NCBI GenBank assembly: GCA_002224055.1
Contig: AZLU01000051.1
Location: 124,001-188,000 of the forward strand
Source: Pezizomycotina sp. ARF18
Lineage: Eukaryota; Ascomycota
Direction: 5' to 3'
Length of the DNA: 64,000 nucleotides
The notes beneath the pieces are model-generated. The model was given only the letters and a program-made list of their open reading frames with translations. It searched no databases and was not told where the DNA came from. Positions within the stretch are counted from its first letter, which is position 1, and every line of letters begins with the position of its first letter. The translations under genes and the position numbers were made by a program. Shown here in pieces: positions 50,968-54,439 of this stretch.

Positions 50968-53180
50968 CTCGCGATCGAGTTCTGGTTGCACGGAACGGAG
51001 CGGGGGGAAGATAGTCAATATATCACGAAGGTAAATAGGCTGTAGGCGGTTGGTAGATGTTAATTTGCTCAATTGCTCTTTCGAATGTCGAGTCTAAAAA
51101 CCTCTAACTCTCAATGCACGATACTGGATATCGGAGCAGAGGGAAGAAAATGTCCAGAAGCGAGGTATCGGCCAGCTATATATGTTCAGAACTCTAAAAC
51201 AGAAATAGCCTCTGACCAAGCGCGTCATAGTATCTAGAAATTTCGACGTCGCCATGTCTCCAAACACTAACACGCACAAAGCCGAAAAAGAAAACAAATC
51301 ATACGATCTACTTGCTTTCACCGGATCTCCGAACGACAATCAGCCACAAGGGGAAATCACCTAGCAATTACCGTGCTTTTTAATCAAAAGAAAAACGTAG
51401 GCGAACAAAAATCACTAGGTTGTTTCCAGCATCCAAGGATACGGGAGAGGCGAGGGCAGACTCAATTTTCAAACAATTTTTATGGCAAGGCGAAACGAAT
51501 TCGTCCGAAGATGCTTCTACCGTAACGCTTGTTCTCAATCCATTGGCTCAAATGATGGCTAGTGGCGTATTTCGCGCGATAACACACGATAATTAGATCA
51601 CGACAAAGCCAAGACTTCTAGAGCAGACAGTCTGCCAGGGGAGCTGTGAGCGGCAGATCACGTGCATTCTCGGGCGATACGAGGCCTGCTATTGTCAGCA
51701 AGATTTTGAAGGTCTCAAATTCTCTGAGGGGAAATGATGGGAAATAGGTTTAGATCGCTAATTAAAAAGCTTAAATTAAAACTCAAGTAGGGAAAGTGGG
51801 GCTCCGAAACCCACGGAGAATACCCAAAGTGCCGAAGTTCCGAAACACCGGTCACAATATCCCGGCGTCCTGAGCCTGTATTACATACTCGCTAGTATCC
51901 GTATTTCCTGCGATAGTGTTTCCAAACTTCGAAATAGGGATCTTAAAATTATAGGGACGTTAGATTGGATGTGACACAAGGAATTTTTGGGTGAAAAAAG
52001 CAATGGAAAGCTGCTTACAATAGCATTAGAAACCATAATTCGTCGCAACGGAGATTGTATTTTCTTGATTTGGACCGTTTAAACGCGATATACGGGCTGG
52101 GTTGGACCCTCGAGTATAGTTACTAATACAGAAACCTGAGTTCTATATTGACATCAACCTTTTGTCAACCTTGACGTGTTTCATCCGATCTATAAACACG
52201 GTGTACACTGATTTTTCCGTCCTATTCCTTATTACTGATGAGAGTAACTAATAAAGGAAGCTTACCATTTCTTTGCGGAACCGAGCTTCACATGACGACG
52301 TAGCTGTTTCTAACGCTTCATTAATTAACACTTGATCGCTAAGTTAATACCAGTGTTGCTCTATAGAAGCTTTACACTTCAGTCAATTGCATGGTGTACA
52401 CGGGTCTATATAAGTATCATGCTGACGCTTGGGCAGCAGCAACTGTCATCATCAGAAACCAAACTATTTTTTAGTTCCTCATATCAGAGCTTGCTTTTTA
52501 ATCCGATTTCAAGATTCCTAATAAAAGTCCAGATTGCTCCGCTGTAAATTTTTCAAGACGATGTGCGTATAGTAGATGATATTTAATATTTACAGGATAT
52601 ATCTCAGCCAAAAAAAAATATTAGGACTAGACATTAAACCAAACGAAACACATCATTGGCGTATAGGTATTAGTGGTAAGGTTGTTAGATTTTGGTTATG
52701 CCTTCACAAAGGGTAATATAACGAGCTTCGTACCTATAGATTTGCACCAGATACTCGCGGATTTTTACTTTACAGTGTCATATAACCCTATAGATGGCTA
52801 GTGATTAAGATGTCTTCCAGTAAAATACACCGTGGGAGAACTCGGGCTAAAGTTTAGAATAAGTAAAGAATTCTAAGATCAAATAAATGACTCATTAATG
52901 AATTTTCGGAGCGATTGAAGAATAATACTTAATGATACCAAGTACTATAGTCGCGACTTGAAGATAAAGCCACAGGGCAATCAATGATTTAATAAATAAA
53001 ATAATGAATTAGAGTATTTAATCGTAACTAGAATAGGAATTATAGCTAAGCAGATAAGCAAGCACCTTGCTCCCTTATCCGGGCCGGGTCTCAGCTCAAG
53101 CCCGGCGTAAAGCGTGCAGCTCGACCTCACCTGAAAATATATTGTCAGCTTTCTCCCTTATCCTGCATCCAATTCTAGAA
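50968..53180. other. Intergenic region upstream of the oxidoreductase and tRNA
   Basis: No gene is recognised. It contains CTCCG-N7-CGGAG at 51802-51818 and the palindrome GCAGACAGTCTGC at 51622-51634, either of which could bind a regulator. GCCGGG and CCCGGC arms pair around 53083-53105, about 80-100 bp before the tRNA. The middle is AT-rich and decayed. Confidence 0.4.
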
Positions 53181-53210
53181 CCGATCTTAGCTCAGTTGGT
53201 AGAGCATCAG

Positions 53211-53280
53211 GTAAGCTTCAACAAATCTTCCTTTCCCAAAAATATTTCATGAGTCAATCAACTAATCAATTTCTCTCCAG
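53211..53280 (+). other. 70-bp GT-AG intron-like insertion between tRNA positions 30 and 31
   Basis: It begins GTAAGCTTCA and ends TTCTCTCCAG, with ACTAATC 16-22 nt before the end as a branch-point-like box and a pyrimidine tract. The flanks CAG|GTAAG and CCAG|A are spliceosomal in style, and the size matches the mRNA introns of neighbouring genes (63-84 bp). No such intron is expected in a Pol III transcript. Processing by tRNA splicing endonuclease at a noncanonical site is the alternative. Confidence 0.75.
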
Positions 53281-53287
53281 ACTGTAA

Positions 53288-53305
53288 CTGTTCAATAAAC
53301 AATAT
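53288..53305 (+). other. Canonical tRNA intron (after position 37)
   Basis: An 18-nt AT-rich insert lies between A37 and A38 of the tRNA-Tyr. Eukaryotic tRNA-Tyr genes normally carry an intron exactly here, removed by the tRNA splicing endonuclease and ligase. The exact edges could shift by one base. Confidence 0.85.
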
Positions 53306-53345
53306 ATCTGAGGGTCCCCAGTTCGAGTCTGGGAGGTCGGACGTC

Positions 53346-53368
53346 TTTTTTTTTTTTTTTTTTTTTTT
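53346..53368 (+). terminator. RNA polymerase III terminator (T run)
   Basis: A run of 23 Ts begins four bases after the discriminator base of the tRNA. Four or more Ts are enough to stop Pol III. Confidence 0.85.
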
Positions 53369-53672
53369 AATTCGCTATTCTTTTTACAGTTACATTCAAG
53401 AGCGGTCTTCTTCTGGACCAATCGTGATTTCTGCTTCTTTTCTTTTCGATGCATCGTGATCTATTAGAGAAATCTGGAAGGTTGAGTGAGCGTTGTATAG
53501 ATTGACAGAATACTCCGTGGCGTTCGACTGAATGCATTAAGTCCTCCTATTTCAATGGTTGAAGGTAATTGAACATTTTCATACTTGACTCTTTCTTCAT
53601 GATCCAAAGTCATTCTCTGGTAGAAATATTTCAAGGATATCATCCTTGCGCTTAAGGTCTCACCCCTACAGA

Positions 53673-54439
53673 ATGTCGGAATTCCCTCTTCCAGCTGAGC
53701 TCTGGACTGAAATCTTCAATAGCCTCGACTACCCAGCGCTGAAAAAATTAATGCCAGTTTGCAAACGCTTTAACAGCCTTATCACCTCGGCTTCCTCAAT
53801 ACACGGATCGGCTTTGGAGAGCGCACTTTTCAGAGGCAATCCTGTCAACATACGCCTCGTACCATCCAGAACTCCCGCACTTTGAACTTCACCCATTCCT
53901 CCAGGACGCAGGTTTACCTCAAATCGTCTTTTTTTAAATGGCCAGTTAACTGTATCGAACTTACGATACGCGGGAGGGAAGTACTTTACGCAGACGGTAC
54001 CTACAGTATTGAGAACTTGGCTCTCAGCAGTACTTAGAGAACGCAAGCAAACACTGGACTGAGAATGCTATCTCGCCCGCAATCAATCAGTTCCTTAACC
54101 TTGAAATGTCGGTTCCCATGCTTAGCACTCAAGACCAGATGATCACTCTACGGATCCCATAGAAGAAAAACCCGGTCACAATAGCGGGAGTTCTTGCAGC
54201 TAGGCTTACTGGCTTCACAAATTGCTGAAGATGTTGAGCAAGCACTCACCGGTTCGATCCGTCTCTCCCAGTATACGGACGCATGGGAGGGAGAAGCATT
54301 TTTGGAAGCAACCGCCTGGCTTGTGGGTCGAGGTGGTATGATTCCGAAGGGATTGGAGGAGATGGAGGCTAATGAATATCGCGCAAAGTTGATGGAGGAT
54401 ATCAATTTGCTTGCTACGGAAAATGTATTTATGAATTGA
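53673..54439 (+). CDS. F-box protein
   Basis: This is a likely substrate adaptor of an SCF ubiquitin ligase. The F-box is at the N-terminus right after the start: LPAELWTEIFNSLDYPALKK then LMPVCKRFNSLI (residues about 5-36), with the usual LPxEL and VCKxF positions. The body continues in pieces: ESALFRGNPVNIRLVPSRTP, HPFLQDAGLPQIVFF, IELTIRGREVLYADGTYSIE, HWTENAISPAINQFLNLEMS and, at the end, SIRLSQYTDAWEGEAFLEAT to ENVFMN. About 255 residues is usual for small fungal F-box proteins with no recognisable C-terminal repeat. At least three frameshifts break the frame after codon 70. It lies 330 bp downstream of the tRNA. The target is unknown. Confidence 0.75.

Follow-up and report, generated by a model that had tools for sequence, protein, structure and literature searches.

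A probable spliceosomal-type intron inside an otherwise intact tRNA-Tyr(GUA) gene of Pezizomycotina sp. ARF18

By which machinery could a tRNA be made from a gene that is interrupted not only at the usual intron site but also within its anticodon stem? This question arises from a 64-kb stretch of DNA of Pezizomycotina sp. ARF18 (hereafter the window), in which a tRNA-Tyr(GUA) gene at 53181-53341 (+) carries two insertions, one of 18 nt at 37/38 and one of 70 nt at 30/31 (Table 1). The sequence and coordinates of this locus had been reported in an initial annotation and were found to be correct. The splicing of tRNA and that of mRNA are treated as distinct systems, each with its own substrates: tRNA splicing is listed as spliceosome-independent in a 2026 review (PMC13149111, excerpt), and the tRNAscan-SE 2.0 paper limits eukaryotic tRNA genes to one intron (PMC8450103, excerpt). 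The window looks like fungal nuclear DNA, and encodes a KCH fungal potassium channel (Pfam PF16944), a cytochrome P450 (Pfam p450) and an FSP1/AIF-like oxidoreductase (Pfam Pyr_redox_2; best PDB matches to NADH oxidases/peroxidases, with FSP1 lower down).

Table 1. Positions in the window of the features of the tRNA-Tyr locus and its downstream flank
Feature	Position	Strand	Basis
tRNA-Tyr exon 1, tRNA positions 1-30 (acceptor 5′ strand, D arm, anticodon stem bases 1-4)	53181-53210	+	sequence, ARAGORN, fold, cut enumeration
A box TAGCTCAGTTG, 0 mismatches	53188-53198	+	assumed consensus
Intron-like insert of 70 nt with GT-AG ends, at 30/31 (donor GTAAGC, acceptor CAG)	53211-53280	+	sequence, slice count, cut enumeration
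Branch-site-like ACTAATC; branch A = 53265, 15 nt before acceptor end	53261-53267	+	motif scan; position hand-counted
tRNA-Tyr exon 2, tRNA positions 31-37; anticodon GTA at 53284-53286	53281-53287	+	ARAGORN, fold, cut enumeration
Canonical 18-nt tRNA intron at 37/38	53288-53305	+	ARAGORN, cut enumeration
tRNA-Tyr exon 3, tRNA positions 38-73 (anticodon stem 3′ strand, variable loop, T arm, acceptor 3′ strand, A73)	53306-53341	+	ARAGORN, fold
B box AGTTCGAGTCT, 2 mismatches	53320-53330	+	assumed consensus
23-T run where a Pol III terminator would lie	53346-53368	+	sequence
F-box ORF just downstream of the tRNA gene	53589-53885	+	Pfam F-box

ARAGORN found no tRNA in the window when introns were disallowed, and Rfam returned no tRNA at the gathering score in the window and none at E<=10 in 52900-53700. 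The Rfam matches around the gene were weak (best E 0.089, all far below the gathering score) and were taken as chance. In intron mode, the raw sequence gave a tRNA-Thr(tgt) with a misplaced 70-nt intron, a call that was rejected because the 18-nt intron was used as an oversized variable arm. When 53211-53280 was deleted in silico, ARAGORN called a tRNA-Tyr(gta) with an 18-nt intron at 37/38. This agrees with the earlier proposal that removal of this segment together with the canonical intron restores a TCAGA/TCTGA stem, U33 and the anticodon GUA in a 73-nt tRNA, and all 21 of the 21 stem pairs form in that product (20 Watson–Crick pairs and T5-G68). The C1-G72 pair and A73 that had been claimed for it were both read in the 73-mer, along with U33, G18G19, A14, U8, G15/C48, T54-T55-C56 and A58 (read from the position index), which we take to be identity or invariant features of tRNA-Tyr(GUA). 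With the insert removed, the locus has the cloverleaf, invariant bases, C1-G72, A73 and anticodon GUA of a nuclear tRNA-Tyr(GUA). The 18-nt insert has the properties of a canonical tRNA intron, as it lies at 37/38 and pairs beside the anticodon in the predicted pre-tRNA fold; if C53288 is kept in place of A53306, the stem is still perfect and position 38 becomes C. The decay of stems, loops and promoter boxes that marks a tRNA pseudogene was not seen in the gene (21/21 pairs, a perfect A box and a B box with two mismatches).

We then asked how far this tRNA dictates the position of the first cut. Positions 1-26 and 44-73 were fixed, and the 105 nt between them were reduced to a 17-nt anticodon arm by one or two cuts. 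Five Watson–Crick pairs resulted from 2 of the 18 single cuts, and U33 was absent from both and from all of the six best that were listed. Among 13,311 double cuts, 15 yielded a perfect stem with Y32-U33-R37, and 12 of these 15 had the anticodon GTA. Only four of the 13,311 passed with the second cut at 37/38, and they shared one product, TCAGA-CTGTAAA-TCTGA, with the anticodon GTA; the remaining 11 comprised eight with the same arm and C38, and three with other anticodons. The four registers of the first cut arise from the CAG at both ends of the insert, which lets it slide by 3 nt (53208-53277 to 53211-53280) with an identical product, and only 53211-53280 is GT-AG. With the second cut at 37/38, the first insert thus measures 70 nt, and its position is settled to within the CAG repeat of 3 nt at its ends.

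In the GT-AG register, the insert starts with GTAAGC, contains AACTAAT with the branch A 15 nt before the end, and terminates in TCTCTCCAG. Its ends (GTAAGC..CAG) are of the fungal GTRWGT-like, GT-AG kind and differ from the U3-intron consensus of PMC5832005 (excerpt) at a single base, donor +6; its ACTAAT matches the RCTRAY branch motif that the same source places 6-36 nt before the acceptor. GT..AG ends were found in 410 of the 127,860 70-nt slices on both strands of the window, and the full grammar in just one, the insert itself; it was absent from the other 127,859. The donor, branch-like box and CAG noted earlier in the 70-bp insert are confirmed. When the length was left free, the window contained 18 occurrences of the grammar, whereas 20 shuffles averaged 18.7. 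The intron motif is thus uninformative by itself, and motif density was dropped as evidence. The evidential weight lies in the coincidence of borders: the cut given by the intron grammar and the cut required by the tRNA are the same to the base.

For comparison we used five introns in the P450 gene (46558-45065), with borders read by eye. These have the donors GTTCGT, GTAAGA, GTAAGG, GTAAGT and GTAAGT, CTAAC or CTAAT branch motifs and CAG or TAG acceptors. The insert falls within their ranges, both in length (70 nt vs 59-82 nt) and in branch distance (15 nt vs 12-26). The borders of the last two P450 introns are supported, because the exon between them (45307-45149) matched Pfam p450 361-413 from its first residue; the other four pieces submitted to the same Pfam search gave no match. 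In the KCH region 7940-7760, where that gene seems to contain an intron, no GT..YAG candidate with a CTRAY branch was among those listed, and local introns are therefore not uniform. The claim that the insert resembles the introns of neighbouring genes holds for these five P450 introns. Absence of TTTT from the insert is a weak sign, since 67% of the 70-nt slices of the window lack it, as does one of the five P450 introns. Elsewhere in the 64-kb window the insert matches nothing over more than 11 bp, and no second copy was found; nor does it have terminal inverted repeats, since none of four inverted pairs in 53100-53420 had both arms inside it. On its anatomy, the insert is well supported as an intron of spliceosomal type in a tRNA-Tyr gene that is otherwise intact.

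Three genes in the window that were read by eye contain frameshifts like single-base indels, several at homopolymers: the P450 (46841-44953, -), the oxidoreductase (50966-49797, -) and KCH (8510-7215, -). The assembly may therefore carry indel errors. These frameshifts are probably uncorrected long-read errors, and possibly mark young pseudogenes. Homopolymer lengths in the assembly, which bear on T runs, are doubtful. No RIP signature was found at 53001-54000 (TpA/ApT 0.82, CpA index 1.2; judged by thresholds we take to be the usual ones), and a region killed by RIP was rejected on these values. An 11-nt sequence, CTCCCTTATCC, was seen by eye twice upstream of the tRNA gene, at 53070-53080 and 53153-53163.

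We also searched for relatives of the gene. A gapped pattern for insert-bearing relatives gave no hits in viral_contigs and none in genome_contigs, an absence that says little because these collections are not fungal. The insert-free arm of the present tRNA was likewise absent from viral_contigs. A looser insert-free tRNA-Tyr pattern matched at least 119 stretches in genome_contigs (78 of the 80 listed with archaeal titles) and one in viral_contigs. Of eight of these 120 stretches that were read, seven show both ends and carry C1, G72 and A73 by eye; the eighth is incomplete. The stretches from both collections say nothing about fungi. By blastn, the tRNA region had no match in plasmids and short tRNA matches in five phage records. 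Two of the contigs encountered are odd in their own right. A contig filed under a Bacteroidales MAG, JAUYGX010000147.1 (L073 3630-3660), bears the start of a tRNA-Tyr that resembles those of eukaryotes and may contain a long intron; it is perhaps contamination. An Opitutia MAG contig, JABGUO010000453.1 (L006 5307-5337), has a tRNA-Tyr very like that of a Euryarchaeota MAG (L001) and is perhaps misbinned.

Could the whole gene be transcribed by Pol III? Promoter boxes were scored against TRGYNNARNNG and GGTTCGANTCC, which we take to be the A-box and B-box consensus sequences. The A and B boxes lie 132 bp apart (start to start), the 23-T run follows, and no internal terminator was seen, as the longest T run within the gene is 3. 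A Pol III transcript spanning the whole gene is plausible on these sequence signals; box pairs of this kind also occur at two other sites in the window (21591/21729 and 40433/40596). Folding was predicted with and without the insert. Once it is out, the minimum free energy (MFE) fold is a cloverleaf in which the 18-nt intron pairs beside the anticodon. With the insert in, the cloverleaf costs 5.9 kcal/mol over the MFE when both introns are present, and 6.8 kcal/mol when the tRNA intron is out. These predictions suggest that the spliceosome would act first and the endonuclease second. The folding evidence for this order is weak, because an alternative fold of the bare 73-nt tRNA is favoured by 0.8 kcal/mol, and the tRNA's pairing probabilities are as low as 0.22 for the anticodon arm and 0.12 for the T arm.

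What we read directly is the anatomy of the gene and the fit of both excisions; its transcription, the two removals, their order and the use of the tRNA would follow a pathway that we propose on that basis. A nuclear tRNA-Tyr(GUA) gene would have gained a U2-type spliceosomal intron at a CAG/A site between 30 and 31, besides its ordinary 37/38 intron. Pol III would transcribe the gene from its A and B boxes and halt in the T run, and the spliceosome would take the 70-nt intron out in the nucleus. This would restore the anticodon stem, so that the cloverleaf with the 18-nt intron could form, and the tRNA splicing endonuclease and ligase would then take out the 18-nt intron. Transcripts other than mRNA can be spliced, because fungal U3 genes commonly carry GT-AG spliceosomal introns, as do those of the vast majority of the Pezizomycotina analysed, and U6 intron cases are cited alongside (PMC5832005, excerpt). 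The main reading, to which we give a probability of roughly 0.58, is that a Pol III tRNA gene here contains a spliceosomal intron, which the spliceosome excises ahead of cleavage by the tRNA endonuclease. Whether a working tRNA-Tyr comes from the Pol III precursor through two unrelated machines, the spliceosome at 30/31 and then the endonuclease and ligase at 37/38, we put at an even chance. Of the original interpretation, the anatomical part stands, a spliceosomal-type intron in an intact tRNA-Tyr gene, and from it we infer spliceosomal removal. As this is one gene in one assembly, selection cannot be shown from it.

Several other explanations of the insert must be weighed. A tRNA gene is usually present in several copies in a fungal genome, so a broken tRNA-Tyr copy could be tolerated. 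On this account, one tRNA-Tyr gene among several would have been broken up recently by an intron, or by an element like one, and would now be a silent copy that makes no tRNA but has not yet decayed. This would explain the anatomy almost as well as spliceosomal removal, and the CAG at both ends of the insert resembles a 3-bp target duplication. Short D/T-arm insertions in eukaryotic tRNA genes mostly affect one of many synonymous genes and are supposed pseudogenes (PMC4090602, excerpt), a view that also favours a silent copy. However, the 21/21 stem pairs, the loops, the A box and the place of the 18-nt intron are undamaged, and the insert's own intron signals are intact. A long-silent copy would have lost some of these features, so their state argues against an old dead copy, not against a young insertion. 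We regard silence of this copy as possible but unlikely.

The initial annotation offered a further option, recognition of an ectopic site at 30/31 by the tRNA endonuclease. The insert would then be an ectopic tRNA intron cut out by that enzyme, comparable to those in tRNAs of Cyanidioschyzon merolae or of nucleomorphs. Such introns exist in some eukaryotes (PMC4090602, PMC3978253, excerpts), and many of those in nucleomorphs form no defined bulge-helix-bulge (BHB) according to the latter. Here, a test for one archaeal-type BHB geometry found none for the 70-nt insert in any of the four registers: 1, 3, 0 and 2 of the four central pairs formed, and the best register (3/4) had 0/3 outer exon pairs. 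Almost no structure is predicted for the insert (MFE -0.3 kcal/mol, z 0.82), whose fit to donor, branch and acceptor, found in 0/127,859 other slices, would be a coincidence. Endonuclease cleavage at 30/31 is therefore disfavoured and, in our view, highly improbable. An overlapping Pol II transcript could instead own the intron, for example as part of the 5′ leader of the F-box gene, with the tRNA carried along. The F-box ORF is on the same strand downstream, with a likely first ATG (perhaps 53673) 332 bases past the tRNA, but the 23-T run lies in between and the base-exact restoration of the tRNA is left unexplained, and we give this account very little credence. An assembly or sequencing artefact would be in keeping with the frameshifted P450, oxidoreductase and KCH genes. 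Single-base indels, however, cannot account for 70 nt of added sequence that obeys intron grammar and sits at the correct position, and we consider an artefact very unlikely.

If spliceosomal removal is true, even the most compact of Pol III products would be open to the spliceosome, and a tRNA would be tied to the mRNA splicing pathway. The gene would also serve as a natural test case for whether abundant RNAs gain introns by reverse splicing. Finally, tRNA finders would miss such genes; here Rfam and intron-less ARAGORN were blank, and intron-mode ARAGORN gave the wrong amino acid.

How does this arrangement compare with known systems? In yeast, U3 is a Pol II gene. Introns in U6 genes were reportedly described by Tani and Ohshima in 1989 and by Canzler in 2016, and Rogers is said to have found mRNA-type introns in fungal nuclear 18S rDNA in 1993. 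U3 is called a Pol III gene in PMC5832005 (excerpt), and U6 is a Pol III transcript (PMC10484740, excerpt). The fungal U3 and U6 introns share with the insert their GT-AG ends and fungal donor, branch and acceptor motifs within a structured non-coding RNA gene, whereas the host here is a tRNA with its own intron and its own spliceosome-independent splicing enzyme. The 18S rDNA introns are likewise of spliceosomal type in a non-mRNA gene, but that transcript is made by Pol I. The 18-nt intron at 37/38 belongs with the canonical tRNA-Tyr introns of eukaryotes, and the 70-nt insert falls outside this class. Like tRNAs of C. merolae and cryptophyte nucleomorphs (PMC4090602, PMC3978253, excerpts), this gene has a second tRNA intron at a place other than 37/38. 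The ectopic introns of C. merolae are held to be removed by the tRNA endonuclease (PMC4090602, excerpt), whereas the insert shows the signals of a spliceosomal intron and no BHB of the geometry tested. Introners and the proliferating (stw)introns of Hypoxylaceae are known examples of introns gained at new sites in Pezizomycotina (PMC8469720, excerpt). The insert has intron gain in common with these, but differs in lacking a second copy in the window, a terminal inverted repeat and a strong fold. A full-text literature search found no report of a spliceosomal intron in a nuclear tRNA gene among the matches listed, which were titles and abstract openings mostly from outside subscription journals. 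Introns of spliceosomal type are thus known from the U6 and U3 genes of fungi, and ectopic tRNA introns from a red alga and from nucleomorphs; the present gene would extend the spliceosomal introns of non-coding RNA genes to a tRNA.
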